Shown: piece by piece, positions 1 to 26,641 of the stretch | Layout: every line of letters starts with the position of its first letter | How positions within the stretch are numbered: the first letter of the stretch is position 1 | Source: a virus | Direction: 5' to 3' (one strand) | Length of the DNA: 31,262 nt | Virus record (IMG/VR): IMGVR_UViG_3300043438_000571 | Span: 1 to 31,262 of that record | The notes under the pieces: model-generated | Database searches by the model: none | The model's input: only the letters and a program-made list of their open reading frames with translations | Told to the model about the DNA's origin: nothing | Translations under genes and position numbers: made by a program

Positions 1-732
1 ATGTACGTGAACTTGTTTGGAAACTGTGTAGATTGGGATCGGTTCCAAATACAAACTAGATTCTTTAATGATGATCTTGTGATCATCGAAGACGCAGCAC
101 AAAGTTTTGGTGCCAGTTACCGAGGCATACCCAGTGGCAAGATGGGTGACATCAGCGTGTTGAGTTTTGATCCAACCAAGAACTTGGGCAACTATGGGTC
201 AGGAGGAATGATTTTGACAGATGATCTGCACATTGTCAACACAGTAAAAGGTCTGCGCGACAACGGTAGACCTGTAACCTATCTTTATCACAACGACACC
301 CCAGGAACCAACAGCAAAATGAGTGAGTCTGATTCAGCTCAGATGTTGGTCAAACTCAATCACTTTGATTCGTGGCAGCGGCGCAGAACCAAGATCGCCG
401 AATACTACATGCAAGAGTTGTATCAGTACGTGGATACATTAACCCCAAACAAGGATGTGGTTCATGCCTGGCATAAATTTGTAATTCGCACACATGATCG
501 AACAGCCTTACAAGCAAAATTAAGTTGGCATGGCATTGAAAGTAAAATACACTATGATTATGCGTTGTACGATCTAGGAGTTGGAGCCAGTTATATTGAC
601 TACACCAAGGATGTGTACACAGAAACCAACTCGTTTACCAAAGAGTGCCTGAGTTTGCCTATCTATCCTGAACTGTCTGATGCTGAAGTAGAAACTGTAG
701 TTGCAGTCATCAAGAATTACTATACTGAATAA
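1..732 (+). CDS. DegT/DnrJ/EryC1/StrS-family PLP aminotransferase, 5' truncated by window
   Basis: The 243 visible residues are the C-terminal two thirds of a sugar aminotransferase of the fold-type I DegT/StrS family. These enzymes use PLP to transfer an amino group to a nucleotide-linked keto-sugar. Visible marks are VIIEDAAQSFGASYRG (residues 27-42, with the PLP-ring Asp31), the Schiff-base lysine Lys60 in SFDPTKNLGNYGSGG, and GIESKIHYDYAL, which matches the family's GI...HY segment. Family members are about 360-400 aa and the reading frame is already inside the domain at base 1. The ATG at base 1 is therefore probably internal, and roughly 110 or more residues lie outside. The stop codon overlaps the 3' end of the convergent repeat-protein gene by 23 bp. 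The neighbouring glycosyltransferases suggest a role in amino-sugar supply (inference). Confidence 0.88.
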   Translation: MYVNLFGNCVDWDRFQIQTRFFNDDLVIIEDAAQSFGASYRGIPSGKMGDISVLSFDPTKNLGNYGSGGMILTDDLHIVNTVKGLRDNGRPVTYLYHNDTPGTNSKMSESDSAQMLVKLNHFDSWQRRRTKIAEYYMQELYQYVDTLTPNKDVVHAWHKFVIRTHDRTALQAKLSWHGIESKIHYDYALYDLGVGASYIDYTKDVYTETNSFTKECLSLPIYPELSDAEVETVVAVIKNYYTE

Positions 733-3727
733 ATTTGATTTGTAACCAAGCCCAATCAAAACTCAGCATCAGCAGATTGTAATCACCACCCACCTCCTCA
801 TAGTAAGCAACAGCGTCAGCTGCACCACGCAAACACCATTCCGCATGATCACCATGTGCCACAGTTAACCAAGTGGTTAATCTATGTTCAGTTTCTAACG
901 TAGGTTGCGTGGCCATAAAGTGTTTTAGTTTAACAACTTCACGGAATGCTGTACGCCAGGTCATCCAAGGGTCTTGATTGAATCGTGCTATACCACTTAG
1001 TACAGGCACACTTTCGTGTGGCTGACTTAGAGTAAAATCAATACCAGGATTGTTATTTGCTAATACTAGATTCTTGTTATACGCAATCATGCCTTGGTGT
1101 CCGTACTCTAATCCGTTAACAGGATTCTGTGCATTAAAGATATAATGTTTGGGCTCTTGCCAATAATCTGGTTGCCATGTATACCAAGGGAAACTTCCTC
1201 CCATTACTTCTAGTTTGGCAAATACAGCAAAAAACCAGGGCGTGGTACTTGCACGAGCTGCCGCTTGATACGCTGCCGTACGACCATTGACTCCACGTAT
1301 CCATTTTACATTACTATTGGCCATGTATTTGGTGTGATGGAACATTAGTTCTTCATTGGGCTCACCATTACTAATGAAGATAGTATCCAGGGGATTTTCA
1401 GTCACATAATGAGGATTTTTGCGGTTTACATAAGGGTAATCATATAATTGTGTACGCAAATGTGCCTTGATTTCTCTAGGCACTATCGTAGTAGCCCCGT
1501 TGCGTGTAATTGCCTCAGCTACACGGTCTTTTGCATGCCACAAACAAAGATCCTGGGCGTTTGACGGTGCTGTGCTTTGATTGGTAAACACTGCGTATGG
1601 AAAATCAAACTGATATGCTTGTACTGCAGGCACAATGCTGTCTTGGGCAAATTGTACCACAGGAGCAGGCAGTCGATCTACCAATTGTTCTTGGCAATAG
1701 TTGATCACATTAAACCAATCCAGCATTTCTAATTCATACATCTGTGTCTTAAACGATTCCACATGTATATAAAAAGTATCTCCGCGACGTTGGCTGCTGC
1801 TGCCAAACACGTGAATCATTTCCTTTTGCCACGGTTCGGGTTGCCAGGAAAAATCAAATTTGGTGTAATTGCAAATGCTGCTGGTAATCCAAACGTATTC
1901 AGTTGTAGCCGTCGTCATTACACGTTTGAACGTGTCTAAATAATTATCAACAAAGCGAGTAACTTTAATATCAGGATGCCGTTGCTGCATCCAGGCCAAT
2001 TGATGGTTGGCATTGTTATGATCAACATAGTAGATGTCATGTAGATCATCGGGTCTGTGTACAGTTTGATTGTTAACAAAGTTCAAACTAGGAAACTGTT
2101 CTAGAGACGTAGCCCATTTAGCATGTCTTTCAAACTCCCATTTGTTGACAAGATATGTGTCAGACCATTTTTGCCATTGGCTGCCAAATATGTGCGTCAT
2201 GTAGCTTTGCCACGGCTCGGCATGCCATGCAAAATCAAACTCACTGTAAACATTTTCGCTGCTAATAACCCAGAATTTGTTTGTGCTGGTTCTAGTAACA
2301 CAACGACGCACAGTTTCTAACATGCTGTTGGCGTATCTGATCTTTTGTGCAGCAGGAAAACGTTGTTGTAGTTGTTCAAACCGTACTGCAGATAATGAGT
2401 TACCCTTATCAACAAAAAAGATATCTAGCACGACAATTGTACTTTGGCCTTTCTGCTTGATTGGTAATTCGTATTCCAGTTTAATTTCTGTTGCACCAGG
2501 AGTGGTATATGTTAGTCCAGTGCTCTTTTGATATTGACTGCCAAAGTGATGTACAAAACAATCAGCTGGATGCGGATGCCAGGTAAAGTCAATGTTGTCT
2601 ACATTAATTTCTTCAGGCACACACCACCGTTCCGGCATTGACAACAATGCAGCCTTGGGATATTCCAGGTACTTGCGTTCAACTGCACCCAGCACATGGT
2701 ATTCTACTGTGGGCATGATTTCTGCAGCGTGCCACTGATTACCAAACACATAGATGTAAGGTGGATCACCAGGATCTGGAACCCAACTGTAATCCCATTC
2801 ACAGTCTATCAATGTGTGCCAATGGTTATTATGTCGTTCTGGCAATTGTGCTCTGGGATAATCCAGGAACTTGCGTTCAGTTGCGCCTGCAACTGCATAT
2901 TCTACTGTAGGCATAACCTCTGCAGGATACCACTGATTACCAAACACATAGACGTAAGGTGGATCACCAGGATCTGGTTCCCAGCTAAAGTCAAAGCTGG
3001 CTGCATGCACAATTGTAAACTTGTTAGGCTGACTGATTCTAGTAGCCTTGGGGTAGTCCATGTACTTTGTTTCTGTGGCGTTACCAACCACGTACTCCAG
3101 TGCAGGTCTCAATTCTGGTGCCAACCATTGATTGCCAAACACATAGCGATAAGGAGGATCTGTAGGATTGGGACGCCAGGAAAAATCAAAATATTCTATA
3201 TCATCTAATATGTTCCACTGATCCATTACTGGCAACACTTGTACAGGCCTATCTTCTACAAATTTATATTGTGTAGCGCCAGGCACTGTGTATGTTACAG
3301 TTGGCTCACGCACCGCTAAATTCCATTGATTACCAAATACATAAATGTATGGGGGCGATGCTGGATCTGGGCACCAGCGCCAGTCAATACTGTTTCTATC
3401 AACATGTTCAGGGATAGAATAACAGTCTATTATTGGCAGTCGATGTACTGGGTATTCTGTTCTGTAATTGTAAACCAATTGTGTATTGTGTTTATTGGCC
3501 AAATACACTTCGCCATTGGGTTGCCATTGATTGGCCCATACATGTGTTTGGTTTGCTTCCCAGGGCGCTGGCACAAAATTAAAATCAAAATTTGAGTAAT
3601 CGTTGCCTCCATAAATATACCAGTAGAGTCCAGTGCGGCTCTTGTCAGCAGCATCCTCTAAACTTGTAGCAGGTTGTTCGTGCGCAAATCTACCAGGCTT
3701 AGGCCCAAAATAAAAAACATCAAACAT
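710..3727 (-). CDS. 1005-aa protein of nine degenerate GT-A-type modules
   Basis: Nine copies of a core resembling FDFSWxPxPxDPPYxYVFGNQW start near residues 47, 114, 180, 245, 311, 379, 497, 624 and 846. The first six are spaced about 66 aa apart. Copies seven to nine sit in longer units that also carry an upstream half (for example DIFFVDKGNSLSAVRF at 435-450). The last unit (about 780-925) aligns along its length with the GT-A glycosyltransferase encoded at 19162-20091: VNGRTAAYQAAARASTTPWF against VKGSDAAHKAAAAASDTEWF, and NPVNGLEYGHQG against NIINGLRYGNGG. At the position of that enzyme's DGD metal motif this protein has FAKLE, so transfer activity is doubtful there. No signal peptide or membrane segment is seen. 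The start is the first Met; its ATG lies head to head with the next gene's ATG and no Shine-Dalgarno is visible. The role is unknown: a glycan-binding scaffold or surface protein is possible. Confidence 0.85.
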   Translation of the reverse strand: MFDVFYFGPKPGRFAHEQPATSLEDAADKSRTGLYWYIYGGNDYSNFDFNFVPAPWEANQTHVWANQWQPNGEVYLANKHNTQLVYNYRTEYPVHRLPIIDCYSIPEHVDRNSIDWRWCPDPASPPYIYVFGNQWNLAVREPTVTYTVPGATQYKFVEDRPVQVLPVMDQWNILDDIEYFDFSWRPNPTDPPYRYVFGNQWLAPELRPALEYVVGNATETKYMDYPKATRISQPNKFTIVHAASFDFSWEPDPGDPPYVYVFGNQWYPAEVMPTVEYAVAGATERKFLDYPRAQLPERHNNHWHTLIDCEWDYSWVPDPGDPPYIYVFGNQWHAAEIMPTVEYHVLGAVERKYLEYPKAALLSMPERWCVPEEINVDNIDFTWHPHPADCFVHHFGSQYQKSTGLTYTTPGATEIKLEYELPIKQKGQSTIVVLDIFFVDKGNSLSAVRFEQLQQRFPAAQKIRYANSMLETVRRCVTRTSTNKFWVISSENVYSEFDFAWHAEPWQSYMTHIFGSQWQKWSDTYLVNKWEFERHAKWATSLEQFPSLNFVNNQTVHRPDDLHDIYYVDHNNANHQLAWMQQRHPDIKVTRFVDNYLDTFKRVMTTATTEYVWITSSICNYTKFDFSWQPEPWQKEMIHVFGSSSQRRGDTFYIHVESFKTQMYELEMLDWFNVINYCQEQLVDRLPAPVVQFAQDSIVPAVQAYQFDFPYAVFTNQSTAPSNAQDLCLWHAKDRVAEAITRNGATTIVPREIKAHLRTQLYDYPYVNRKNPHYVTENPLDTIFISNGEPNEELMFHHTKYMANSNVKWIRGVNGRTAAYQAAARASTTPWFFAVFAKLEVMGGSFPWYTWQPDYWQEPKHYIFNAQNPVNGLEYGHQGMIAYNKNLVLANNNPGIDFTLSQPHESVPVLSGIARFNQDPWMTWRTAFREVVKLKHFMATQPTLETEHRLTTWLTVAHGDHAEWCLRGAADAVAYYEEVGGDYNLLMLSFDWAWLQIKFIQYSNS
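2447..3433 (-). repeat. Tandem ~66-codon coding repeats
   Basis: This is the run of five short tandem modules (copies two to six, residues 99-427) in the 1005-aa protein. The DNA is conserved as well as the protein: the segment beginning ccactgattaccaaacaca occurs at 2732 and again at 2930, exactly 198 bp (66 codons) apart, and both copies continue into a nearly identical stretch ending ggatcaccaggatctgg. A more diverged copy lies near 3124. The near-identity points to recent unit duplication. Copies two and six are more diverged. Confidence 0.85.
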
Positions 3728-4922
3728 GTATAATATTCACAGTCATTACGAAACTTTATTCTATGCATTAAAGGATATTGTAACACATCGTAGGTTAATT
3801 TACCTATACCCATACGGCTCAACTCAACCAGAAAATATTGAACGCTCAGCCGATAATATTTCAAAATTCAGTGGCTTTATTAAAGACGGACCTATGTTTG
3901 TATTCTACGACCAAGAACCCATATACGGCAATTATAATTATACATTGTTTGATCACATAAAAAATAATTTTCAACCACCACATATATTAGTAACGACTGA
4001 AAAAGATAATCCAACTCTGACAGAAATCCAAGAAAAATATGGTTGGCCAATTGTGTATTATTTTCATCATGTGTTTGCAGCGCATGATTGGTTTCGAGGG
4101 TATCAGTATAATTTGGCAATCACAAACCCAAAAGATAGAACTATTACAAAAAAATATATTACGTTCAACCGCCTAACTGGTAATGCTAGAGTATATCGTA
4201 GTTTTTTTGTTGCCGAACTTCAAAAAAATAAACTGCTCGAACACGGACATGTTAGTTACAGCGATGTTTGTCCCGAACATGGATATTACGAGGAAAATAT
4301 ACTTGCTTCGATAACTACACACAATGTATCAGCTGAATATGTATTAAACGCTAGACACCAATTAGACCAAATTGACTTTCCATTGCGTATTGATCAAAAA
4401 CATAATCAGTTTATTGAAAACGACAGTATGCGTATCAATGCTATTGAAGAATGCATGGAAAGTTTCTTGTATGTAGTAACAGAAACGTGTTATTGGGATA
4501 CCAAAAAACACCTGACAGAAAAAATATTTAAACCTATTATTACCAAGCAACCATTTTTGTTACTGGCATGTGCTCATAATCTTGAATATCTACGCAGCTA
4601 TGGATTTAAAACATTCAGGGCCTGGTGGGATGAAAGTTACGACACCATACAAGACCCCATACAACGATTACAAGCAGTTGTTAAAATTATCAACGACATT
4701 TGTGCAATGAGTAACGAGCGTCTTGAAGAAATCCTAACGGAAATGCAAGAAGTATTAGATTACAATTATAACTGGTTCTATAATAAACAATTCTTAGATC
4801 AATGCTGGGACGAACTAGTCGTTAATCTTCAGCTGGCAACTGCTCAAGTGTTACCCCAGACTTCTTCAGAAACACTAGTCCTGAATCATCACGATAATTT
4901 GCACCATAGTATACATGACTAA
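3726..4922 (+). CDS. GT10-like (fucosyltransferase-fold) glycosyltransferase
   Basis: This 398-aa protein has the C-terminal signature shared by GT10-type alpha-1,3-fucosyltransferase-like proteins of marine phages: VVTETCYWDT (250-259), TEKIFKPI (264-271), then GFKTFRAWWDESYD (293-306). A central strand-turn region (KYITFNRLTGNARVYRS, 143-159) corresponds to the segment before the donor-binding half. Two paralogues lie on the opposite strand at 15774-16808 and 18184-19137. It is one of only two plus-strand genes in the window. Its ATG shares two bases with the ATG of the divergent repeat-protein gene, and no Shine-Dalgarno is evident. The last 33 codons (366-398) are antisense to the dCMP deaminase gene, and that tail looks unlike the rest of the family. 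Donor and acceptor cannot be read from the sequence. Confidence 0.75.
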   Translation: MYNIHSHYETLFYALKDIVTHRRLIYLYPYGSTQPENIERSADNISKFSGFIKDGPMFVFYDQEPIYGNYNYTLFDHIKNNFQPPHILVTTEKDNPTLTEIQEKYGWPIVYYFHHVFAAHDWFRGYQYNLAITNPKDRTITKKYITFNRLTGNARVYRSFFVAELQKNKLLEHGHVSYSDVCPEHGYYEENILASITTHNVSAEYVLNARHQLDQIDFPLRIDQKHNQFIENDSMRINAIEECMESFLYVVTETCYWDTKKHLTEKIFKPIITKQPFLLLACAHNLEYLRSYGFKTFRAWWDESYDTIQDPIQRLQAVVKIINDICAMSNERLEEILTEMQEVLDYNYNWFYNKQFLDQCWDELVVNLQLATAQVLPQTSSETLVLNHHDNLHHSIHD

Positions 4923-8751: not shown

Positions 8752-9925
8752 ATCCTGGTTTCATCATATCAATTTGCATTTGTTTATAATCTGAATCAGA
8801 CCAACAGTAAGGATATGTACCAATAACATTTTCAATTTGCACAGAATATATGTCCGAGTAGCTTCCTAACATGTTCCATATTTTAAAATGATCGGTTGTA
8901 CCAAAACTTTTTAGTAGATCAACCTCACCAATAGGTAGATAACCTAAACTCAAGTTTTCATCCAAAGGGTCCAATTTATTCTTTACCAGCCACTCACGAA
9001 ACAATTGTTGTTCTTTGATGTGCCAAAAATGTCTTGAGTCATGACCCGATACTACATCTAGCCCCCAATCAATATCAAACTCACCGCTGTAATATTCAAG
9101 ATGTGTAATTGCCTCACACACTGCGTCAGTAAGATCAGGTGCACCTTCGTCCCTAAACACTTCAAACAATGTTTTACCTATTTGCGCCCAGTGCATGTAT
9201 ACATGACCAAATCTACGATCGTACCCATTTTCTAAAAACAGTTTTCTATGTTCGGCACGCAATGTGTGTCGAGGAGCATGTAACCATGTTGTAATTTGGC
9301 TTGGTCTGATCCATTCAGGCAAATAAACTTGTTTTTGCTGACTCAGAATTAAATTTTCCATTTCGTGGCAGAGTATGTTTAGTTGCCTAATAGCATATTT
9401 TGTTTCGTAATCAGCTAATACATAATACGGACTAGAATTGTTCACTGTACCTTGAAGAATTTCAAAGTGATTATGTAACTTATTGAGTATGCTTTTTTTC
9501 TCAGACAACCCTATGAACTGTGTTAGATAATAGTCACTGGTTCCTTCTTTATGTAATCTTTTTGGTATCGGATATTCTATTCCGTATCTAACTGTATCTG
9601 GTGTAAAGTATTCTTCGATGAAGTACGAATCCAGATCGCCGTGTATCCATGCAAGAGTACTGTTAAACTTGTTAATCTGTAACACTGCTTTATTAAGCTC
9701 TTTACACAAATAGTCTAATGTTCTTGCTGTATTAGGAAAACCCATAAAGCAGAAATTTTTCTCTAAGAGAGAATTAGACTGCAATAATTTTTTGAGTGCA
9801 TCAATCCAATCATGTGACATTGGATTATCGTATGTCCGGATATAATAATCCAATGTGTCACTATAATCCAATGGATTTCGTAACGTAACTTTTATTTCAG
9901 ATTGATTGCCACCACTCATATACAT
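8729..9925 (-). CDS. Conserved phage protein of unknown function (398 aa)
   Basis: I do not recognise a characterised domain. The protein is mostly alpha-helical in appearance, with histidine/acidic clusters: LNKLHNHFEILQG, LNILCHEMENLI, LHAPRHTLRAEHRKL, then FGHVYMHWAQIGKTLFEV. Near the C-terminus there is GYLPIGEVDLLKSFGT. The spaced His and Glu residues could bind metal, but no known signature is complete. It lies directly after the radical SAM genes and overlaps the last one by 29 bp and the next SGNH gene by 23 bp, which suggests a partner in the same pathway. The first ATG has an AGAGAG purine run just upstream; a second ATG two codons later is an alternative. Confidence 0.8.
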   Translation of the reverse strand: MYMSGGNQSEIKVTLRNPLDYSDTLDYYIRTYDNPMSHDWIDALKKLLQSNSLLEKNFCFMGFPNTARTLDYLCKELNKAVLQINKFNSTLAWIHGDLDSYFIEEYFTPDTVRYGIEYPIPKRLHKEGTSDYYLTQFIGLSEKKSILNKLHNHFEILQGTVNNSSPYYVLADYETKYAIRQLNILCHEMENLILSQQKQVYLPEWIRPSQITTWLHAPRHTLRAEHRKLFLENGYDRRFGHVYMHWAQIGKTLFEVFRDEGAPDLTDAVCEAITHLEYYSGEFDIDWGLDVVSGHDSRHFWHIKEQQLFREWLVKNKLDPLDENLSLGYLPIGEVDLLKSFGTTDHFKIWNMLGSYSDIYSVQIENVIGTYPYCWSDSDYKQMQIDMMKPGYDYSSRR

Positions 9926-11195
9926 CTGCTCTCTTTGATAGTATTTCGTCCATGGTTATTGATTGACTACGGATAGATTCTAATTGTAACACACGAGCCT
10001 TACCCTTTGCAACACCTTTGAGATAAGCGTCTACGCCAAACTGTTCTTGAAATGTAGGGCGTGTTTTAAGTTGAACTAGTATATCCTTTAACGGGCCGAG
10101 GGGTGTGGTTGGGCCATCCAAAATTTCATCTACCCATGCTTCTAATAGACTTCTGGGTAGGGCTAAAGGTGACATAACTATGTCCGGACTAAAACCAAAG
10201 ACAACCTTGGCCAGGATGTCAACGCCCAAATCGTCAGCTAACTGCTGTATATTTTCTACTTCAAACATACCCGGGAGGGTAAGAGTGAAGTCCAATCTCA
10301 TTTGACGCCTGTTTGTAGCAACTGCAACTCCTCTCTTAAAGTTTTCAAGCCATTCTGTATAATCAAGACCTGTTCGGATATATTCTCCAATTCTTCCCGT
10401 TCCATCAATACTCGCACATACTTGCCAATCACGTAACCGGCATAAAATATCACTGTACAGATCAATACCCCGGTACCGGACACGACTAAGGTTTGTGTTA
10501 TATCTTGCGTAGACATTTGGACCATCTCCTAGTTCTATAATACGCTGCATGTACCGCCAATGTTGTTCGTACATTAACGGCTCTCCCCCCACCCAGTACA
10601 CCTCTTCGATACGGTGGTCTTCGACTGCTGCTGCGAACTCGGCTTCAATTTGAGTTGTTTGAAATTGTTCAATCTGATCTTTGATCTCAGGTTTCATCCA
10701 ATTGTTCTTTGGATCCTGCCAGTTGATCATGTTGTGTTGGCGTTGCTCGCTTTCCCAAGCACTGCTTAACATGTCTCCACACATGCGACATTTGAAATTA
10801 CAATGATTGCTAAATCTGTAATCCCACGATACTGGTTTTAATGTGGTATACCCAGTTGCGTCAGTTTGTTCTACTACTTGTTTGTACTTATGTCCGAACA
10901 ATTGATTGAAATAACTACGGTAAACGTCAGTGTTTAATAGCTTGTCGTTACATACTTCACACTCGGGTAGTGTTTCTCCGGCCATCATGCGACGTCGCAC
11001 ACTGCGCATATGATCATTGTTCCAGTGGTCTTCTAAGGTAACGGGAATATACTGCCCGGTACCGGCACTGGTATCAATATACTGGCGAAAATTTTGTGCT
11101 GGTTCTCGGCTGGCACAACACAACCGCCGTTCAGTTTGTGGACTAAGGTAGGTGTGTACCCACGGTGCCAGGCACAAGGTATCAGGCTTACTCAT
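9897..11195 (-). CDS. Radical SAM protein with N-terminal twitch/SPASM-like cysteine domain (copy 1)
   Basis: This 432-aa protein has the radical SAM cluster motif CxxxCxxC at Cys132, Cys136 and Cys139 (HCNFKCRMCG), followed by WVGGEPLMYE (201-210), the GGEP SAM-binding turn. Ahead of the core is a cysteine set typical of SPASM/twitch auxiliary-cluster domains: LCLAPW (Cys8), a CC pair (26-27) and CEVC (79-82). In most SPASM enzymes this region follows the core; here it precedes it, as in the phage 'twitch domain-containing radical SAM' family. Those enzymes cleave SAM to a 5'-deoxyadenosyl radical. The substrate is unknown, though SPASM/twitch relatives often act on peptides. The start overlaps the previous stop by 8 bp. 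Confidence 0.88.
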   Translation of the reverse strand: MSKPDTLCLAPWVHTYLSPQTERRLCCASREPAQNFRQYIDTSAGTGQYIPVTLEDHWNNDHMRSVRRRMMAGETLPECEVCNDKLLNTDVYRSYFNQLFGHKYKQVVEQTDATGYTTLKPVSWDYRFSNHCNFKCRMCGDMLSSAWESEQRQHNMINWQDPKNNWMKPEIKDQIEQFQTTQIEAEFAAAVEDHRIEEVYWVGGEPLMYEQHWRYMQRIIELGDGPNVYARYNTNLSRVRYRGIDLYSDILCRLRDWQVCASIDGTGRIGEYIRTGLDYTEWLENFKRGVAVATNRRQMRLDFTLTLPGMFEVENIQQLADDLGVDILAKVVFGFSPDIVMSPLALPRSLLEAWVDEILDGPTTPLGPLKDILVQLKTRPTFQEQFGVDAYLKGVAKGKARVLQLESIRSQSITMDEILSKRADVYEWWQSI

Positions 11196-12405
11196 AGCCC
11201 ATTGCCTTGGCTATTTCAAAGTGTGTGTCTTTAAAACTCTGCTGCCTATACTCGTCGGTGCGTTGCATTTTGGTCAAGAATTCTTTGCCGTCACTGCCAT
11301 TTCCGTTCTGGATAAATTTAATTATGTTGCTAATTTCGTATTGATAATGTCGATTGGTCCATGCGGTGGTTTCCAGTTTATTTAATACCAATGCTTGAGC
11401 GTCCGGGGTCATTTTTTGTATACTCATATGGCCCGGGCTATGCATCATGTTAAAATATACACTACCAAATTTTTTAGTATCTGCCCAGGCCAATAGTTCA
11501 TCTAAATAATAAACATTCTGAATATTAATTGTAAAACAAAGTTGTGTAGTAATGTTTGGCATCCGCTGTTGTTTGGCTGCATGAGTAGCATCTATAATAC
11601 TGTTTGCTTCCATCCAGTTGGCTCCGTATCGCTCGTACTCAAATCTAGGTCCTACGTTGTCAATACTGAATGCAATATCTACTCGTCCAAATTTACTAAA
11701 CAAGTCCAAATGCGGCAAGATAGATTGTGTAGCATTGGTATTGTAGTGTATGTCTATATTTTTGCTGTAGCCTTCACTGGCTGCAAAATTCAATAACTCA
11801 AAGTGCTCCTCAATCAACCAAGGCTCACCACCGGTGAACTCAAAGTACTTTATGTTGGGCAGTATTTGCTTTAAGTTGCTCCAAAAAGTTGTATCCTTGT
11901 TTCGTGGCCAGGCGCCCTGTTTTAACCACTGATATGCAATATGAGATTTTTTATCAGATCCTTTAGACATATAGTTTAGTTCTTCTTCTGCCCATTTGCT
12001 ACTAGACCAGGATCCGCATATACGACATTTTAAGTTACAGATATTACCCAATTTTAAATCAATAAACCACAGTTGATCAGGAGTATCATTTGCCCAGTCT
12101 ACCTGTGCATATAGTTCTTTTAATCTAACCTGACTATGTATGCGCTTGCTTGACCTGCCAGCGACTTCCTCGTCCCAACAACGACTACATGTTGCAGGCT
12201 TTTCTCCAGCACGAAACTGTCGTCGAAGTTTCTGCATATATTCGCTGCGATATATTGTTGTTAGGTCGGCTGTATTCAAATCATACTTGACCCCATCAGT
12301 ATCTGTAATCTCATCATGCGCCATGCAGCATGGCCTAGTAGTTCCAATTGGACTGGTTTCTATACTGATCCAAGGCAACATACAAATTGTGTTAGGTAGG
12401 GTCAT
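11188..12405 (-). CDS. Radical SAM protein with N-terminal twitch/SPASM-like cysteine domain (copy 2)
   Basis: A 405-aa relative of the flanking two genes. The core cluster is Cys123, Cys127 and Cys130 (NICNLKCRICG) and the SAM turn is FTGGEPWLIEEH (starting near 190). The N-terminal domain carries ICMLPW (Cys8), PCC (26-27) and CSRC (73-76). The sequence after the core differs clearly from copy 1, so this is a distinct specificity rather than a recent duplicate. The ATG at 12405 lies 14 bp inside the upstream gene. There is no leader or membrane segment, so it should act in the cytoplasm. Confidence 0.88.
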   Translation of the reverse strand: MTLPNTICMLPWISIETSPIGTTRPCCMAHDEITDTDGVKYDLNTADLTTIYRSEYMQKLRRQFRAGEKPATCSRCWDEEVAGRSSKRIHSQVRLKELYAQVDWANDTPDQLWFIDLKLGNICNLKCRICGSWSSSKWAEEELNYMSKGSDKKSHIAYQWLKQGAWPRNKDTTFWSNLKQILPNIKYFEFTGGEPWLIEEHFELLNFAASEGYSKNIDIHYNTNATQSILPHLDLFSKFGRVDIAFSIDNVGPRFEYERYGANWMEANSIIDATHAAKQQRMPNITTQLCFTINIQNVYYLDELLAWADTKKFGSVYFNMMHSPGHMSIQKMTPDAQALVLNKLETTAWTNRHYQYEISNIIKFIQNGNGSDGKEFLTKMQRTDEYRQQSFKDTHFEIAKAMGYE

Positions 12406-13735
12406 AGTATCTTAGTTCTGCAAGTTCGGGAAATGTAGCCCACACATCTTCGTTTCTGACTTTATCTAGTTTATTGCATTCTTCTACAAAGCGAGGCCAG
12501 TATTTGTCCTGAGTGCTACTCATCATCATGTTTTTTAAACTCTGAAATCCATTGGTTGCCCTACGCAATGTGTCCTGTGGATCTATCCAGGCAATATGTT
12601 CGTCATATGCCGGGAATATTACCTCTTGTTTGAATTTTTCAGGAAATATATCAGTTCGATACCATTCGGGACTCTGACAGACATTAACGTTCCAATCTTT
12701 GGCATTGATCAATCCCAGGCGTGTCCATTCTTTATGAAAATCTAACACATGCAACACGTTTAATGCACTAACAGTGCTACTAACATAGAAATCAACATGT
12801 GGTACTTCTGTGATCATTTGTTCTCTATTATTAACAGTCTGCGTCCAATTGGTTCCTTTGCGTATCAGTTCAGCTTGCTGACTCATACCATCTAGGCTGG
12901 CGCCTACGCTGACATTCTTAAAGTGTTTCCAATATTCAAACACATGTTTGTCCTTGTATGCCAGTTCGCTAAAATTTGTGTTATACTGAATACGAACATC
13001 AGTTTTGCCTGCCTCAATTAGCTTTTCTAATAGAAAGTAATGCTCTTTCATGATAAGAGGTTCGCCGCCGGCAAAGTATACCTGTTCAAGATAAGGTATG
13101 TGTGGTAACATTTGTTCAATCATGGAATCTTCGCTGCCAGCAGTGTATTCGACCCTGGCCATATCGCGCCCAAGGACATCGGGGACGCGATTGTATAACT
13201 TTACATGATCGTTAAACCAATTACTACTGAAGATAGGACCGCAAGTACGGCAGCTAAAATTACATAGGTTGGAAAATCTTACATCCCAATATCTAATTTT
13301 AAAATCTGGATTAGTGCCATCGTCATGTGTATGTTCTACTTCATGTATTAAATGTCCGTAATTCCTATTGCTGTCATTACGCATGCTAAATGCGCCGTTC
13401 TTTTCTAACTCGTAGCATTTAGTACATTGCTTGCTAGGCTGATCCTGCAGCATGTTTACACGTAGTTCCTTGTAGGCATCTTGATTCCATACCTCCTCCA
13501 TGGTGTTTTTACGCAAGTCCCCAATTGGATGCCAGTACTCTGCTAGACAACAAGGATATACTCGACCATCCGGAAACGCATGCATGTGCATCCATGGTAA
13601 CATACAAAAGTTGTCACTTTCTGTCAACCGCTGCCATTGCTTGTCTGTAAAATCTTCGCGGCCAGCAAAATACGGGGCGCTGGCACTATAATCATATCCT
13701 TTTTTGTAAAATCCAACTACTTTGTCATCACTCAT
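12392..13735 (-). CDS. Radical SAM protein with N-terminal twitch/SPASM-like cysteine domain (copy 3)
   Basis: A 447-aa protein when started at the ATG at 13735, which forms an ATGA overlap with the upstream stop. A TTG five codons earlier is possible but less natural. After an N-terminal extension (GFYKKGYDYSASAPYF) come FCMLPW (Cys44), PCC (62-63) and CTKC (104-107), then the core NLCNFSCRTCG (Cys158, Cys162, Cys165) and FAGGEPLIMKEH. It belongs to the same subgroup as the two downstream copies, and all three are contiguous. The long extension before the first cysteine is peculiar to this copy. Confidence 0.88.
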   Translation of the reverse strand: MSDDKVVGFYKKGYDYSASAPYFAGREDFTDKQWQRLTESDNFCMLPWMHMHAFPDGRVYPCCLAEYWHPIGDLRKNTMEEVWNQDAYKELRVNMLQDQPSKQCTKCYELEKNGAFSMRNDSNRNYGHLIHEVEHTHDDGTNPDFKIRYWDVRFSNLCNFSCRTCGPIFSSNWFNDHVKLYNRVPDVLGRDMARVEYTAGSEDSMIEQMLPHIPYLEQVYFAGGEPLIMKEHYFLLEKLIEAGKTDVRIQYNTNFSELAYKDKHVFEYWKHFKNVSVGASLDGMSQQAELIRKGTNWTQTVNNREQMITEVPHVDFYVSSTVSALNVLHVLDFHKEWTRLGLINAKDWNVNVCQSPEWYRTDIFPEKFKQEVIFPAYDEHIAWIDPQDTLRRATNGFQSLKNMMMSSTQDKYWPRFVEECNKLDKVRNEDVWATFPELAELRYYDPT

Positions 13736-15084
13736 AATGTATTGTACCAATTTGCTAATGCAGGAAATGTTTGTATGAAATTTTTATTACGACGTTGATC
13801 GTATTGTTGATAGAACTGTTTGAAGTCATTGCGTAACTTGGGTAAATCAAATGCTTCGCTGTGCGGAGTTTTAACCACATCTAAATAATCAACTAAACGC
13901 TGCAATTGGTTCCACTCATGTTCATGAAGGTAGCTGTGACCTTCATGCATGGCCATAAACTGTGACAGTTGATCTTTGTATCGGGTCCGTAACTGGTCAG
14001 GCAATACTAATGCAGATTGAAAACTTGGAAAGCGTAATATATTTAGTGAGATATTAACAGCATCTCGTCCGTATTCTAGTTTCCAATTTACTACACACTC
14101 AAGAAAGTCTACCAAACTGTCCAGGCATAATGCATTGATAGTACACATGACGTGCAAGCCGCGCAACTTGGACTGGTGGTTATTTAAAATCAGTTCTACT
14201 TTGTTTGCCCAGTCGTCCCATACCAAGCCATCTCGTACATATTCAGCTTGTAATCCTGTTGCTTCGTTACTGGTATATATGTCAATGGGTTGGTCTACGC
14301 TGTCAAACAATCGGACCACATCTACCTGTGTACCAAGGTTGCTGTTGATGGCCAGACGAGTTTTACTTTTGCCTTTGTTGTTCTTGAACCAATCTAACAG
14401 TTGCCAGGTGTATCCTGACAGCAAAGGCTCACCGCCAGTGATGCGTAGTTCGTCTAGTGTGTTATGGAGGTCGCTTTCCCACCACGCAAAGAATGCCTCC
14501 ACATATGGGTTAGTTTCACCAAATTTATACAGTTGAGCACTGTCATGAGTGTGAGTAAAATGATTCCTGCCGTCTGAAATCAAGTTAATGTAGGGTCCGT
14601 TGGTGTTGATATCTCGAACCCAAGTACTACTGAATGCAGGATTGCAATAACTGCAAGCGAACTGACAAGTACGATCAAAACTGATTTCAAGAGTGCGAAG
14701 ATTAACATCGTTGATTGGGTTAGTGTTGTATGCACGATCTAGATCCTGATCAGAATAAATTATTGTTTTGTACACCCGATCACTGATGTTGTCGCGCCCA
14801 ATGTCTTCTATTTTCCAGCAGTATTCGCAGCCAGAAGGTCTGTGTCCTTTTTGCATCTGAGCACGTTCTGATTTCTTTTGATCAGTATTGTGTAATGCAC
14901 TGGGGTTTGTTTTTATTTTCTCAATATCAATTGCATGTGGCAATGGATGATGGCAACTTGTGGTCATGCCGCTGCCTAACCATATAGTAGCGTTATACCA
15001 TTTTGCTCCACAGAAACTGTCTGACTTGATGTCAATTATTCTGTGCTTATACTCTAGATATGTTTCGTTATTAAGTCTTGACAT
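13732..15084 (-). CDS. Radical SAM protein, second subgroup (copy 4)
   Basis: A 450-aa protein with core cluster Cys140, Cys144 and Cys147 (RTCQFACSYCNP) and RITGGEPLLSG. The N-terminal cysteine domain is of another type from copies 1-3: FCGAKW (Cys25), SCHHPLPHAIDI (Cys44) and CEYCW (86-89), with the connecting segment NPSALHNTDQKK. The same pattern occurs in the gene at 16809-18194, so these two form a second subgroup. The C-terminus (QRRNKNFIQTFP) also matches that paralogue (KRRNTNFTETFP). A 36-bp AT-rich gap precedes the gene, one of the few gaps in the array, and may hold a weak promoter. Confidence 0.88.
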   Translation of the reverse strand: MSRLNNETYLEYKHRIIDIKSDSFCGAKWYNATIWLGSGMTTSCHHPLPHAIDIEKIKTNPSALHNTDQKKSERAQMQKGHRPSGCEYCWKIEDIGRDNISDRVYKTIIYSDQDLDRAYNTNPINDVNLRTLEISFDRTCQFACSYCNPAFSSTWVRDINTNGPYINLISDGRNHFTHTHDSAQLYKFGETNPYVEAFFAWWESDLHNTLDELRITGGEPLLSGYTWQLLDWFKNNKGKSKTRLAINSNLGTQVDVVRLFDSVDQPIDIYTSNEATGLQAEYVRDGLVWDDWANKVELILNNHQSKLRGLHVMCTINALCLDSLVDFLECVVNWKLEYGRDAVNISLNILRFPSFQSALVLPDQLRTRYKDQLSQFMAMHEGHSYLHEHEWNQLQRLVDYLDVVKTPHSEAFDLPKLRNDFKQFYQQYDQRRNKNFIQTFPALANWYNTL

Positions 15085-15120
15085 TTTAAAATTTTTTATG
15101 TTAGAATATAAAACAAGTGG

Positions 15121-15777
15121 TTAACTATTAAAGTACAATCTTTTATTCAACTGCTGATACTCATTAATTAATTTTTGTATCTCATCTGTTACAGGTTTTT
15201 GTAAAATATCAGAAACTGTATCTGCCAGTGATGCATTATCTAATCCCATCACTGTTTTAAAATTAATATTGTAATCAACTACTTCTCTGTCATAATTTTT
15301 GTCCCAGTCCGTAATCTTTAATAATAAGTGATTGATTAGGTCTGTCCTTACTATTTCTGATTCAGCAATTATATTAGTGCTATAGTCCGGCCAATCAACA
15401 CCTTTTTGATTTGCATATTCTTGCTCTGTTAATATGTCGGGCCAAGCTTTGCAAACAAAGAGTTTAGTTACATCATAATAATCATCGGGATACATCTTGA
15501 TACTAATGACTTTTAAATTTTTTTGCGACTTCTTAAAATCTCTAATAGGTCCGTAATGTGCATTAAAAATTGGGTAGCCGCGCCGAAGATTGCTCCAATA
15601 ATCACCAATAAAATTAACAACACGGTTGGCACCTTTCCAGTTACCGTAGCCTTGGTCATGACTATGTCCGGTGCTAGAAAAATTTGGTTTTACTGTCATT
15701 CCTAAAAAATTAGCTATCACCGAAGTCAAAAATAATCCGCCTGTGCCTGCACAACAATATACCATGTACTTGTTCAT
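15121..15777 (-). CDS. Sulfotransferase-like P-loop protein
   Basis: The 218-aa protein opens with YCCAGTGGLFLTSVIANFLG, which looks like the 5'-phosphosulfate loop and first helix of sulfotransferases of the P-loop fold. It continues with a mid-protein strand NLKVISIKMYPDDYYD and ends with a helical segment (DNASLADTVSDILQKPV) like the one after the 3'-phosphate site. No canonical 3'-PB motif is certain, so the assignment is tentative: a P-loop protein with sulfotransferase resemblance, perhaps moving sulfate from PAPS to a sugar. It is AT-rich like the neighbouring GT10-like gene and forms an ATGA overlap with it. The APS-kinase-like gene at 5467-5880 would fit as donor supply. Confidence 0.5.
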   Translation of the reverse strand: MNKYMVYCCAGTGGLFLTSVIANFLGMTVKPNFSSTGHSHDQGYGNWKGANRVVNFIGDYWSNLRRGYPIFNAHYGPIRDFKKSQKNLKVISIKMYPDDYYDVTKLFVCKAWPDILTEQEYANQKGVDWPDYSTNIIAESEIVRTDLINHLLLKITDWDKNYDREVVDYNINFKTVMGLDNASLADTVSDILQKPVTDEIQKLINEYQQLNKRLYFNS

Positions 15778-16808
15778 GTAAATAAATTTGTTAGTTTAAT
15801 CTTTTGCTCTTTAGAAAATTCTAAAAAACGAGTTCTATTATACATTAGATCTGGCAACATGTCATTGTACATATTCATCAATTTGTGTTTATCAAGACTA
15901 GCAAGGTGTTGTACAACTTTTATAATTGAATTATGAACTTCATATTCGGGGATATCTTCTATTAGAATATTGTTAAAGTATTTCTCAAAAGTTCTAAATC
16001 CCCGATTTCTTAGCCACAAGTATAACTTGGATGATCCATTAATGATAAACGGTCTCAATCCAATTATGGGCTTCCATGTTTTTTCTGTCACAAACGTATG
16101 ATCCCAGGGATTAAATGTAGTTTCGCTGATTATATTTAAAAAGTGATTTTGCCATATGTCCATGTTCCCAAGACTGTGTATGTCGTGGGGTATTCCGTAC
16201 GACATTGCCATCCCCCAGTTTCCCTCATTGGCAAAATCATCCGGCTGTTCACCCAATAGAAAACTTGGTGCATATTCAACTTTGCTATACAATTTATCGT
16301 TTTTACCTAATGTAACAAGACCGTGTCTGACCAAGTCATAGTCAATCAACTGTTTCACTAGCTTAACTCGGTGTTCCCTTGGCTTACGATTATAACAAAG
16401 GTACAAGTACTTTATGTCTTTTATTAATAAATCTGCGTCATTATAATCTTTAAAATAGTCCGGTATTACTGTTGAAATAAAACTAACTTCATACGGAGAA
16501 TCATAATTTCCTATTAAAAAAAGAGAGGCATTAAATTTTTTTCTAATGTTCTCAATTTGATCATGAGTTAACATTATTTCATCAACTAATGTAATAAAAA
16601 ACAAATTATCAATATGCTCAAATTTGTTTAATTTTTTATATTGCCCGTTGTCAAATTGCGGACCAAACCAAGTTGTATTAATTATTAAATTCTCTGCTGT
16701 AGGAAATTTTTTATTAATCTGTGCCTTTAAGTGATCAATAGCCAGCACTTCGTTGGTGTGCCATTGGCTATTAGTCCCAAATGTTGTTCCAATAAAATAT
16801 GTTGTCAT
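15774..16808 (-). CDS. GT10-like glycosyltransferase (second paralogue)
   Basis: A 344-aa protein sharing the GT10-like C-terminal half with the gene at 3726-4922: NIISETTFNPW (225-235), TEKTWKPI (241-248), then RNRGFRTFEKYF. The preceding YLCYNRKPREHRVKLVKQL (136-154) is the family's central 'NR.PR.HR' segment. The N-terminal half is unrelated in detail to its paralogues, as expected if each recognises a different acceptor. The ATG begins immediately after the TAA of the upstream radical SAM gene. Base composition is markedly AT-rich compared with the flanking radical SAM genes. Confidence 0.72.
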   Translation of the reverse strand: MTTYFIGTTFGTNSQWHTNEVLAIDHLKAQINKKFPTAENLIINTTWFGPQFDNGQYKKLNKFEHIDNLFFITLVDEIMLTHDQIENIRKKFNASLFLIGNYDSPYEVSFISTVIPDYFKDYNDADLLIKDIKYLYLCYNRKPREHRVKLVKQLIDYDLVRHGLVTLGKNDKLYSKVEYAPSFLLGEQPDDFANEGNWGMAMSYGIPHDIHSLGNMDIWQNHFLNIISETTFNPWDHTFVTEKTWKPIIGLRPFIINGSSKLYLWLRNRGFRTFEKYFNNILIEDIPEYEVHNSIIKVVQHLASLDKHKLMNMYNDMLPDLMYNRTRFLEFSKEQKIKLTNLFT

Positions 16809-18194
16809 TTAATTTTGTGCATGGTATCGACATTCGTTCCAGAACTCTCGCATTTCTGGAAATGTTTCTGTAAAGTTGGTGTTCCTACGTTTGTCGTGTT
16901 CGTTGAAGAATCTATAAAAATCAGCACGTTGTAGTGTAACATAGTCAGGATCCAAATTGCTACCTTCTTGCATCCAATCTATAGTGCGGCGCATGCGTTG
17001 CACTTCGTAATCCTTAAATCCTTGGAATGGGCGATCTGCTGTTTCTAAATTAGCTTCCATCCAGTCTGCTACGTCGGTTAATCTTTGTGCATACACCGGT
17101 GGAAGTATCTGTAGACTCTGCCATGACGGAGTACGTAACAGCGGAGTATCAAACCATACACGTTGGTATGTTGTACTGTGATATCTCCGCAAAGCCAGAA
17201 TAATTTCTAGTTGTTGTTTTAATCCCAACACACTTAGATTATTCATGGTAATAATAAATGTCAAACTATTACAGTGCGGAATGTGCCTTAAGAAAAATTC
17301 AACTCTTGCTAGTACCCGATTAAAGTCCATACCATGTCGAATATACTCGGCATGCTGCCTGATGCCAGAATCCAAACTAACATACTGCATGAAGTGTTCA
17401 ATTTGTGTATTGCATAACTTGGACACGTACTCAAAATATTTTTGCCATAACTTTTCGTCTACACTAAAGTTACTGGTAACATCAATGTGCAGTTCAGGAT
17501 TAGGAAAAGCCAACACATAATCAAATACTTTGAAGGTATTACGATCCATTAATGGCTCGCCACCAGTCATCCTAAAATGTTTTAGTTTTGGATAGAGAGT
17601 GGGCCACCATTCCCAAAATGCATCTACATAGGGGTTGTCAGCACGAACAGGTATAGGCTTGCGACGACCATTAAAATGGCTCGGGTCATTATGAGGTTCG
17701 CTAGTAGGGTAGGCTCCCCATCGCTGGATTTCGTCTTCCCACGATGAACTAAACTGCGGACTGCAGTAACTACAGCGAAGGTTGCAAGCATGATTAAAAT
17801 TAACTTCCACATAGGAAGGAACAGCATCTTCATCTCCTGTTGAGTTTGTGATTGCATCAAAGTGTTCAGCTGCCCAGGGCTCGCCACTACGATAATGCCT
17901 ATCGCTTAACTGGCCTAGATCTTCCATGTTCCAACAATAACTGCATTCTTGTGGACGCTCATTGCGTAACATAATTTTACGCTGCTCTTTTTTATGCGCG
18001 GTGTTGTGTAACGCACCAGGATTATCTTTTAATAGCGCAGCATCTATTTCGTGCAACGGTGGATGGTAACAACTGTTATTAAGACCGGTTGTCAGGTGCA
18101 AACTCACTTGCTGCCATTTGGCCAAGCAGGTGCCTTTGCCTAGTTTTTGCTTCATCTGCTCTGCTGCAGACATAAAGTCACTTTTACTTGTCAT
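16809..18194 (-). CDS. Radical SAM protein, second subgroup (copy 5)
   Basis: A 461-aa protein paralogous to the product of 13732-15084. The core cluster is Cys137, Cys141 and Cys144 (HACNLRCSYCSP), with RMTGGEPLMDR. The N-terminal cysteine domain has TCLAKW (Cys23), SCYHPPLHEID (Cys42) and CSYCW (84-87), separated by NPGALHNTAHKK. It is separated from the other four radical SAM genes by a GT10-like and a sulfotransferase-like gene. The start overlaps the preceding GT10-like gene by 11 bp. Its two nearest neighbours on either side are both GT10-like, suggesting radical chemistry is interleaved with glycosylation steps (inference). Confidence 0.88.
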   Translation of the reverse strand: MTSKSDFMSAAEQMKQKLGKGTCLAKWQQVSLHLTTGLNNSCYHPPLHEIDAALLKDNPGALHNTAHKKEQRKIMLRNERPQECSYCWNMEDLGQLSDRHYRSGEPWAAEHFDAITNSTGDEDAVPSYVEVNFNHACNLRCSYCSPQFSSSWEDEIQRWGAYPTSEPHNDPSHFNGRRKPIPVRADNPYVDAFWEWWPTLYPKLKHFRMTGGEPLMDRNTFKVFDYVLAFPNPELHIDVTSNFSVDEKLWQKYFEYVSKLCNTQIEHFMQYVSLDSGIRQHAEYIRHGMDFNRVLARVEFFLRHIPHCNSLTFIITMNNLSVLGLKQQLEIILALRRYHSTTYQRVWFDTPLLRTPSWQSLQILPPVYAQRLTDVADWMEANLETADRPFQGFKDYEVQRMRRTIDWMQEGSNLDPDYVTLQRADFYRFFNEHDKRRNTNFTETFPEMREFWNECRYHAQN

Positions 18195-19137
18195 TAACTA
18201 ACCTTATTTTGCGCTGAAAGCTATTAGATGTTATTAAATTATAATTATGGTCAAGTATATTTTGCATTGACTCGTACATATTAACTAGTTCATCTACGGA
18301 CTTGCCTGACAGATTATTAATTACATCTAGAATTTTTTTAAATTTAATACTAGGACTATACCCGTCGTAATCTTCGTCCCAATATTCATAAAAAGTTTGA
18401 AAGCCCATTTGTCGCAAATATATCATATAATTTTTTGGTCCCATAATTATAAAAGGTTTTTTTAGTAGCATGGGCCTAAATGTTTTTTCAGTAGGAAAAA
18501 AAACATTTCCTTCTAAGAAAGTTTCGCTAACTAAATCAACAAAAATATCCTTGTAAAATGTTATTATGGTATCAGCATAATCATATACAATATTAGAATA
18601 CTTAGACGCTTTGTTGAGTAATAACGGAAAATTAGTTGCAATTTCCCCAAAATCAACCAATGATTCTGCACGGTATCGATATAGTTTTTCTAGTTCAAAA
18701 AAAGTACGATCCACATCGTTAAAAGAATTGCCGTGACAGGATAAATGAGCCAGATTTTGATGATGCCTATTTAAATAAGAAATAAAACCTAGTCTATTGG
18801 CCGAGGGCCTTCCGTAAAGACACAAAAAAATTTTTTTACCATTCCAAGAATGAAATAAATTTTCTACATGACGTGGAATCTCCTCTGCATAATAATATGG
18901 TTTATTGATTGCAATTTTATAAAAATTATGACGTTCTAATAGATTTGAGGTGTTAATTGTTACTGATTGAAAAGAAAATTTGTCTAAAATATCATATACT
19001 TGCAAATATTCTAAGCATGCAGCTTCTGGGTTAAGAATAATTTTTATTGATTTATTCTGATTATCTAATAGAAAAGAATAAAATTCTTTAATGTTCCAAA
19101 TCTTATCGTTTGTTGTAATTAAAACAAATGTATTCAT
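18184..19137 (-). CDS. GT10-like glycosyltransferase (third paralogue)
   Basis: A 317-aa protein with the shared C-terminal signature VSETFLEGN (203-211), TEKTFRPM (216-223) and GFQTFYEYWDEDYDGY (245-260). The central KIFLCLYGRPSANRLGFIS corresponds to the 'NR.PR.HR' segment of the 344-aa paralogue. The N-terminal half is diverged. It is the most AT-rich gene of the array: one 60-bp line at 18901-18960 has 13 G+C, against 26 of 60 at 17041-17100 in the next gene. A 24-bp gap separates it from the upstream GT-A gene; GAG lies before the ATG at modest spacing. Confidence 0.7.
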   Translation of the reverse strand: MNTFVLITTNDKIWNIKEFYSFLLDNQNKSIKIILNPEAACLEYLQVYDILDKFSFQSVTINTSNLLERHNFYKIAINKPYYYAEEIPRHVENLFHSWNGKKIFLCLYGRPSANRLGFISYLNRHHQNLAHLSCHGNSFNDVDRTFFELEKLYRYRAESLVDFGEIATNFPLLLNKASKYSNIVYDYADTIITFYKDIFVDLVSETFLEGNVFFPTEKTFRPMLLKKPFIIMGPKNYMIYLRQMGFQTFYEYWDEDYDGYSPSIKFKKILDVINNLSGKSVDELVNMYESMQNILDHNYNLITSNSFQRKIRLVNDK

Positions 19138-19161: not shown

Positions 19162-20091
19162 CTACCATCCTTCGATCTTTCTAATAACGTCAATTTCTGT
19201 CATCATAATCTCACTGTTACGTTGACCAGTACTGTAATGGTGTTTGAAGAAACGACTCTGTTCTGACGTATATATAACAATGGGTAAACCAAGTCGCTTG
19301 GTTAATGACTCTTCAATCTGCTTACACCCTTCTTTGGGATCCTCTTTGCTGAACATATCCCACAACTGTTCCAGCATGTCAAAATCTTGTACGTACTTGT
19401 GGTCCCATCCTTCTAACATGATCATGAATGCACCCAGTCTAGCACCATACATGGCCCAATGACCATTTTCCACATCAGCACCCACACTTTGCCAAATACA
19501 CAAGTGGTCGTAATTACGACCATTGACCCTATCTTTAAATTCTTCTAGGGTGATTCTGGAGCCACGATCCAGACACATCTTGACCCCTTCTCTAAATCCT
19601 GCTCGCCAGGCCTGTTTGGCACTGCCATTGGGGTATGTTGTACTGTAACAGTTGTGCATGGCAAAGTACTTTGGGTCAAAACAAAACTCCACAGCAGTTT
19701 CGTCACTGCCATTGCTGGCCTCGTGTGTGCGCATGTTGTTTACAAATTCGCGACTCCAACAACTTAGTCCACCGTTACCATAGCGCAGGCCATTGATAAT
19801 ATTGCGTGCCTTCCATCTGAATGCGCCACCTTCTTGTTCTGGTTTAATCTTTAATTGTAGATTAAAGAAGGCAGCATCAGGCAGATTATCCCCGTCAATT
19901 AACACAAACCATTCTGTATCGCTGGCTGCTGCCGCAGCTTTGTGCGCGGCATCGCTGCCTTTGACTCCATCGACACGTTTTGCCCAAGGCGTCATGTTTT
20001 GTATCTTGATCCAAAACTCTTCTTTTTTGGGTTCGTCGTAGGTAAGGAAGATACAATCTAAATCTGCTACATCAAGTATTCGTTCGGCCAT
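19162..20091 (-). CDS. GT-A fold glycosyltransferase with intact DGD
   Basis: The 309-aa protein begins with a Rossmann-like strand (DCIFLTYDEPKKEEF), then VKGSDAAHKAAAAAS and WFVLIDGDNLPD (61-72). Asp66-Gly67-Asp68 is the metal/nucleotide-sugar DxD motif, so it is probably an active nucleotide-sugar-dependent transferase. The segment GAFRWKARNIINGLRYGNGG matches the last module of the 1005-aa repeat protein at 710-3727, which lacks the DxD. This gene is therefore the likely functional relative of that protein's modules. It overlaps the previous gene by 20 bp. The donor sugar and acceptor are unknown. Confidence 0.75.
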   Translation of the reverse strand: MAERILDVADLDCIFLTYDEPKKEEFWIKIQNMTPWAKRVDGVKGSDAAHKAAAAASDTEWFVLIDGDNLPDAAFFNLQLKIKPEQEGGAFRWKARNIINGLRYGNGGLSCWSREFVNNMRTHEASNGSDETAVEFCFDPKYFAMHNCYSTTYPNGSAKQAWRAGFREGVKMCLDRGSRITLEEFKDRVNGRNYDHLCIWQSVGADVENGHWAMYGARLGAFMIMLEGWDHKYVQDFDMLEQLWDMFSKEDPKEGCKQIEESLTKRLGLPIVIYTSEQSRFFKHHYSTGQRNSEIMMTEIDVIRKIEGW

Positions 20092-26637: not shown

Positions 26638-26641
26638 TGTA

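Follow-up and report, generated by a model that had tools for sequence, protein, structure and literature searches.

The window analysed here is a stretch of 31,262 nucleotides, positions 1 to 31,262 of the IMG/VR virus record IMGVR_UViG_3300043438_000571. On its minus strand (710..3727) lies the gene for a repeat protein of 1005 amino acids (aa), whose modules appear to derive from the GT-A fold of glycosyltransferases (GTs), an origin supported by profile comparisons and predicted structures. The protein is arranged as M0-(S)x6-M1-M2-linker-M3. An earlier note, made from the sequence alone, had counted nine copies of an FDFSW...FGNQW core, and the same nine were recovered with a hidden Markov model (HMM) of the short unit S that was seeded with the copies of the window. 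Copies 1-6 (residues 47-107, 114-175, 180-241, 245-306, 311-372 and 379-426) follow each other at a pitch of about 66 aa, and copies 7-9 lie at residues 497-529, 624-659 and 849-876. A second, window-free HMM, for which 240 copies from 13 distant relatives were used, matched the protein at E=4.2e-112, and the best of 500 shuffles reached 0.02. Individually weak with this model are the copies that begin at 47 (E=0.0018), 497 (E=0.011) and, weakest of all, 849 (E=16); the last of these is not significant alone and rests on the profile alignments of M3 with M1 and M2. The protein has 7 matches to the motif [FIWYV]D[FWYR].W.[PA], against a shuffle mean of 0.017 and a maximum of 1. Chance repetition was ruled out as a source of the copies by these shuffle controls, as was an assembly artefact by the intact open reading frame (ORF) kept across many samples in 109 full-length relatives and by the changes between close pairs of repeat genes, which are mostly synonymous and in third positions.

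GT-A-like modules of the repeat protein

All modules are read from the minus strand. M0, the N-terminal cap (residues 1-82; 3482..3727), is a truncated GT-A-like half module that contains the first core copy (47-107). It is followed by the short-repeat array, in which HMM matches place five S copies, from residues 114-175 to 379-426 (2450..3388); the copy at 47-107 and these five are the six units of about 66-aa pitch. M1 (residues 430-535; 2123..2440) and M2 (residues 560-665; 1733..2050) are degenerate GT-A half modules with SSE and SSxC.Y, respectively, at the position of the DxD motif, which is mostly SSx or NSE across the family according to a motif tally. The C-terminal M3 (residues 775-1000; 728..1405) is a complete GT-A-like module, including the helical WRTAFRE segment, and motif alignment puts the codons of F836-A837-K838 (1214..1222) in place of DxD.

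Homology to a glycosyltransferase is seen within the window itself. Residues 780-969 align with the 309-aa product of the ORF at 19162..20091 on the minus strand, a GT-A enzyme, as judged by its model and Foldseek, with an intact DGD (codons 19888-19896). The BLASTP E-value was 7e-8, and a separate search gave 2.4e-10; with this enzyme as the query, phmmer found 49 repeat proteins below 1e-5. The profile of M3 aligned with that of the DGD GT family at 99.54% (hhalign; E 3e-23, 188 columns), so that the kinship proposed in the earlier note for the most complete copy was borne out, and profile searches do join the C-terminal unit to glycosyltransferases. A profile chain then runs GT-M3-M1-M2-M0, with GT-M3 at 99.5%, M3-M1 at 97.4-97.7% (M1 vs M3n 97.7%), M3-M2 at 94-96% (M2 vs M3n 95.8%), M1 vs M2 at 99.95%, M0 vs M1 at 99.5% and M0 vs M2 at 99.2%. 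The M2-M3 linker, used as a negative control, was joined to no module (below 1%). The S unit matched M1 at 96.6% over 23 columns and M2 at 95.1% over 20 columns, and the six copies described in the note as pared down to about 66 aa can be regarded as a short form with a core match of 20-23 columns to the full modules.

The predicted structures point the same way. An AlphaFold2 model of the whole repeat protein had a mean pLDDT (predicted local distance difference test) of 85 and a pTM (predicted template modelling score) of 0.54, with the relative placement of the modules uncertain; for the paired GT the values were 91.5 and 0.90. In the secondary structure of the model, M1 and M2 share the order beta-alpha-beta-alpha-beta, the FDFxW segment and two further strands, and S retains the third strand onward, including the post-DxD strand and the hairpin, as read from the secondary-structure string and not from superposition. 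This supports S units as a reduced form of the GT-A fold. Foldseek searches of the PDB ranked GT-A enzymes first for the repeat protein (2z87, E 2e-5, 540-640 columns), followed by LH3 (6fxm, 3e-4), PcManGT (E 5e-4) and heparosan synthase; the TM-scores were low, query and targets both being multi-domain. Glycosyltransferases were also among its BFVD matches. The best Foldseek matches of the paired GT were GT-A or related SpsA-like folds, just one of them below 1e-3. The models thus place the repeat protein among GT-A proteins and not in an unrelated fold. Sequence libraries were less informative: neither the repeat protein nor the paired GT had a match above the curated cut-off in Pfam, NCBIfam or PHROGs, one relative reached just 19.3 bits against PF13641 (cut-off 27), and PDB searches by sequence found nothing. 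Matches of the repeat protein to Kri1, LAG1 and HAD in those libraries fell below the cut-off and were dismissed as chance.

The terminal module, the paired enzyme and the wider family

FAK (836-838) of M3 aligns opposite DGD (66-68) of the 19162-20091 enzyme, and a comparable replacement runs through the whole family. The motif tally found xxK at the DxD position in 115/115 family M3 domains, 104 of them as FAK, with the pattern [FPNW]-[AG]-K, and a separate alignment gave K in 116/116 family members and F in 107/116. Outside the repeat family, DGD or DAD is present in 177 of 181 complete domains, against 0/115 inside it. M3 is therefore without the canonical metal-dependent GT-A DxD motif, and in the sequence alignment the invariant K838 occupies the second Asp position. 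Relative to the DGD enzymes the substitutions are Y18->N, D19->G, D66->F, D68->K and G107->Q or M, and the donor-side motifs are altered together, from SYDEP to SNGEP, from DGD to FAK and from YGNGG to YGHQ or YGHM. The glycine loop YGxGG is absent from M3, its Y and G being retained and N106-G107 replaced by H-Q or H-M. Invariant or nearly so in both groups (GT numbering) are E20, G45, N97, N100, L102, Y104 and G105, and likewise W162, R163, F166, R167, E168, K171 and W200. In the numbering of the repeat protein, the (nearly) invariant residues common with the DGD enzymes are E789, N868, N871, Y875, G876, W924, R925, F928, R929, E930, K933 and W953.

This pattern suggests a pocket adapted to a new use and not one in decay, with the donor and metal side of M3 rebuilt in a coordinated way and the remainder under constraint. 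The earlier note had called the modules catalytically dead. The loss of the canonical DxD stands (115/115), but "dead" is too strong a word for M3, because the substitute for DxD is fixed and about a dozen signature residues are kept. At the motif level M3 is shown not to be a canonical metal-dependent GT; that it is catalytically inactive is likely but unproven. For M0, M1, M2 and S, catalysis appears very unlikely, because the C-terminal half with NPxNxLxYG and WRxAFRE is missing. The M3 domains of repeat proteins form one side of a branch with 99% support, in a tree with several long branches and unknown rooting.

The long DGD enzyme is a constant companion of the repeat protein. This paralog was present in 35/35 repeat-protein records, usually 8-30 kb upstream and on the same strand, and conversely the repeat protein was present in 17/20 records found via the long DGD enzyme. 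In the three GT records without it, the contig ends on that side nearer to the enzyme gene than the usual spacing, an argument of our own. A compact DxD enzyme has a different distribution: a full repeat protein was present in 0/20 of its records and the long DGD enzyme in 19/20, and in several of the 20 the two enzymes stand side by side or fused. The repeat protein thus fills the slot of the compact enzyme. As far as sequence comparison goes, descent has been shown from a pair of GT-A enzymes of aquatic phages, one of 300 aa with DGD and the other compact, of 230 aa, with DxD. Two loci (L281 3071-5680 and L290 3065-5674) encode a fusion of both enzymes with a C-terminal domain that by eye is methyltransferase-like. 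Another (L259 1871-4687; also L265) encodes 938 aa with about seven GT-A-derived modules, counted by eye, of which the last has an intact DAD and others a partial DxD (DPE, DND, YPD), an apparent intermediate stage.

In IMG/VR, close patterns located 69 loci and the family profile at least 586 stretches, which indicates a large repeat-protein family in many uncultured aquatic phages. The members follow one architecture, M0-(S)n-(M1)0-2-M2-M3, with M0 and M2 present in almost all full-length members. Among 109 of these, n ranged from 0 to 30 (n = 0 in 10/109), and the proteins were between 545 and 2717 aa long. Of the pairs whose constant regions are 80-90% identical, 81% differed in n. The S unit itself is well conserved over 664 copies family-wide: W5 and P7 approach 100%, followed by D2 (98%), Y16 (94%), K42 (93%) and Y33 (92%). 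The 2717-aa member (L194 5654-13807) has about 29-30 units, and in its DNA a unit most resembles those four units away (0.69 vs 0.57), a higher-order repeat whose period suggests block duplication. Relatives were also found on four contigs of metagenome-assembled genomes (MAGs). On one contig binned as a Pacearchaeota MAG, and probably a phage contig, the protein (L152 2540-4552) reads M1-M2-M2-M3 without S units and is an intermediate, with SYDEP kept but FPK at DxD. Cultured phages were without a match: among 50,697 deposited phage records neither the repeat protein nor its minimal form nor any of its GT relatives was found, while as a search control the deoxycytidine monophosphate (dCMP) deaminase of the same window matched 3106 records. 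Cyanophage homologues, which might have been expected, were not found.

The repeat gene and a divergent plus-strand neighbour of 398 aa (3726..4922) start on one CATG palindrome at 3725-3728, their ATGs sharing two bases, so that the leader of each gene must fall within the coding region of the other. The two-base overlap was seen in 59/63 loci that have this neighbour. Tail-to-tail with the repeat gene is a fragment of a DegT/DnrJ aminotransferase (1..732, plus strand; Pfam PF01041, 5e-51), a family that is the 3' neighbour of the repeat gene in 56 loci. The neighbour at 3726-4922 and the proteins at 15774-16808 and 18184-19137 are unnamed and have in common a TEK(T/I)F(R/K)P...KPF motif; they are reminiscent of GT10-type fucosyltransferases, and library searches gave no family match for them. 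A NodU-type carbamoyltransferase is encoded in the window, five twitch-domain radical S-adenosylmethionine (SAM) proteins (NF033640) form one island at 9897-18194 with GT-like genes between them, and two further possible GT genes, read from motifs alone, lie at 20421-22035. The tail fibre encoded at 24925-26637, which contains collagen-like repeats together with an S74 chaperone domain, is a possible glycosylation target. The gene content is in keeping with an island for building glycans next to the tail genes.

Possible roles of the repeat protein

The explanation preferred here, held tentatively and at somewhat less than an even chance, is that the repeat protein is a pseudo-GT, a non-catalytic, COSMC-like partner of the active-type DGD enzyme that also carries a multivalent array. 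To the observed homology, fold, motif loss, pairing and change in copy number, this proposal adds conjectural steps, namely that the protein binds the DGD enzyme or the substrate of that enzyme, that the array has a role and that there is a target of modification. M3 would no longer perform canonical metal-dependent transfer from nucleoside diphosphate (NDP) sugars and could still bind a shared partner or substrate, because the acceptor-side and helical residues remain invariant. The protein would then serve the DGD enzyme as a scaffold or non-catalytic subunit within the glycan-building island of the phage, and the array would offer a surface for multivalent contacts or for spacing, with a length that recombination between copies may alter. 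The candidate targets would be the tail fibre, another virion protein, a free glycan or DNA. The nearby GT, DegT, carbamoyltransferase and radical-SAM genes were counted in favour of such a partnership. Several points weigh against it. The S profile alone was not significant against the GT profile, and S is tied to the GT-A modules only via the 20-23-column core and the strand order. Outside DxD, the residues of the active site are better preserved than a mere scaffold would need, and loss of DxD is no proof of loss of activity. Moreover, co-occurrence with the DGD enzyme may reflect one inherited phage lineage, with non-independent records, and not physical partnership. A more specific possibility, unlikely as it stands, is that a phage lineage made one member of the two-enzyme pair into an accordion protein, in which a lysine-substituted GT-A domain carries 0-30 tandem half-GT-A units. 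These units would act as a platform or ruler of adjustable length on which the partner enzyme finds its glycan or protein substrate.

The preserved residues of M3 would also suit a rather doubtful alternative, an active metal-independent GT in which K838 replaces the divalent metal and the array holds or presents acceptors, in effect a metal-free version of the compact enzyme. Lysine in 116/116 members, with about a dozen further signature residues invariant, speaks for it, and with the slot of the compact enzyme taken its reaction may still be needed. Active enzymes without DxD are known: GT14, which uses basic side chains for the metal, and bacterial GT6 (PMC7185993), as well as LtpM, a DxN GT-A enzyme active without metal (PMC6393602). 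COSMC illustrates that DxD loss can end activity (PMC7185993), and in M3 the base and donor motifs are altered too (SYDEP->SNGEP, G107->Q/M), with the whole NDP-sugar site rebuilt and no candidate donor.

The rapid change in copy number, and a gene co-directional with the tail-fibre and structural block (24925-30993), at whose end it lies, would also suit a multivalent virion adhesin or spacer, its pseudo-GT modules binding host-surface glycans and its repeat number tuning length as in tail-fibre repeats. This is improbable, however, with about 18 kb of biosynthetic genes between the repeat gene and the tail genes, metabolic genes adjoining it, no match to any tail family, and the strongest conservation in an enzyme-like core, not a tip. 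More improbable still is an ordinary multi-domain GT in which just the C-terminal domain matters, the modules before it being duplications that degenerate neutrally. Other phages do have tandem GT-A-like proteins whose last domain is intact (L259), but here residues are near-invariant across 664 repeat copies, M0 and M2 persist in almost all full-length members, and the last domain itself lacks DxD. That the repeats are instead a radical-SAM substrate, modified in the manner of ribosomally synthesized and post-translationally modified peptides into a decorated fibre, is very hard to credit: the window has five twitch-domain radical-SAM proteins, the aromatic motifs recur and W5 is found in 100% of 664 copies, yet in the full modules the conserved aromatics occupy positions at which the GT-A fold itself requires them, and members free of repeats exist (n = 0 in 10/109).

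Comparison with known systems

Large aquatic phages are reported to have several core glycosyltransferases of unknown role (PMC12619734), and the passages searched in that paper contain no such repeat protein. Literature searches gave no description of a protein or system of this kind, in agreement with the earlier note. The direct homologues are two proteins of uncultured Caudovirales phages, A0A6J5L5L5 (1076 aa) and A0A6J5LK21 (804 aa), with 61% and 50% identity over the model, both uncharacterised and without an assigned function. The multi-module and compact DxD GTs (L259, L281, L239; in UniProt, "uncultured Caudovirales phage" Glyco_tranf_GTA_type) belong to the same branch and share WRxAFRE and NPxNxLxYG. 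The multi-module phage GTs are alike in having degenerate tandem modules before a complete one and the 300-aa DGD enzyme as a genomic partner; they differ in a last domain with DGD or DAD (32/32 complete domains in a new multi-module set) and in having no 66-aa S array. The tandem array of the earlier note thus holds as a GT-A-derived repeat, but not as a standalone case, related phages (L259) having tandem modules before an intact DxD domain. Together these proteins give a natural series from enzyme to repeat protein, from the DxD pair to multi-module proteins with DxD, FxK without an array and FxK with a long array.

Chondroitin polymerase K4CP (2z87) and LH3 (6fxm), the top Foldseek matches, also have several GT-A or GT-A-like domains per chain, but the domains are few, the proteins are known polymerase or collagen-modifying enzymes, and identity is about 8%. 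GT14, bacterial GT6 and LtpM are alike in an absent or changed DxD and have no detectable sequence relation to the repeat protein. The functional parallel proposed, COSMC (C1GALT1C1, GT31), the chaperone of T-synthase, is a DxD-less GT-A paralog with an active paralog retained in the same genome (PMC7185993), and the same coexistence of a DxD-less with an active-type paralog was found in 35/35 records; unlike the repeat protein, COSMC belongs to an unrelated GT family, has no repeat array and has lost xED too. The DGD enzyme is a named candidate partner, and K838 is a single residue at which a loss of catalysis could be told from a change. Pseudo-GTs and tandem GT-A domains are already known, while the searches gave no earlier account of a GT-A fragment accordion whose terminal domain has a fixed FxK. 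Known pseudo-GTs come one at a time; here, in a widespread viral family, the catalytic motif changed once and then stayed fixed, and a unit of about 66 aa was amplified to dozens.

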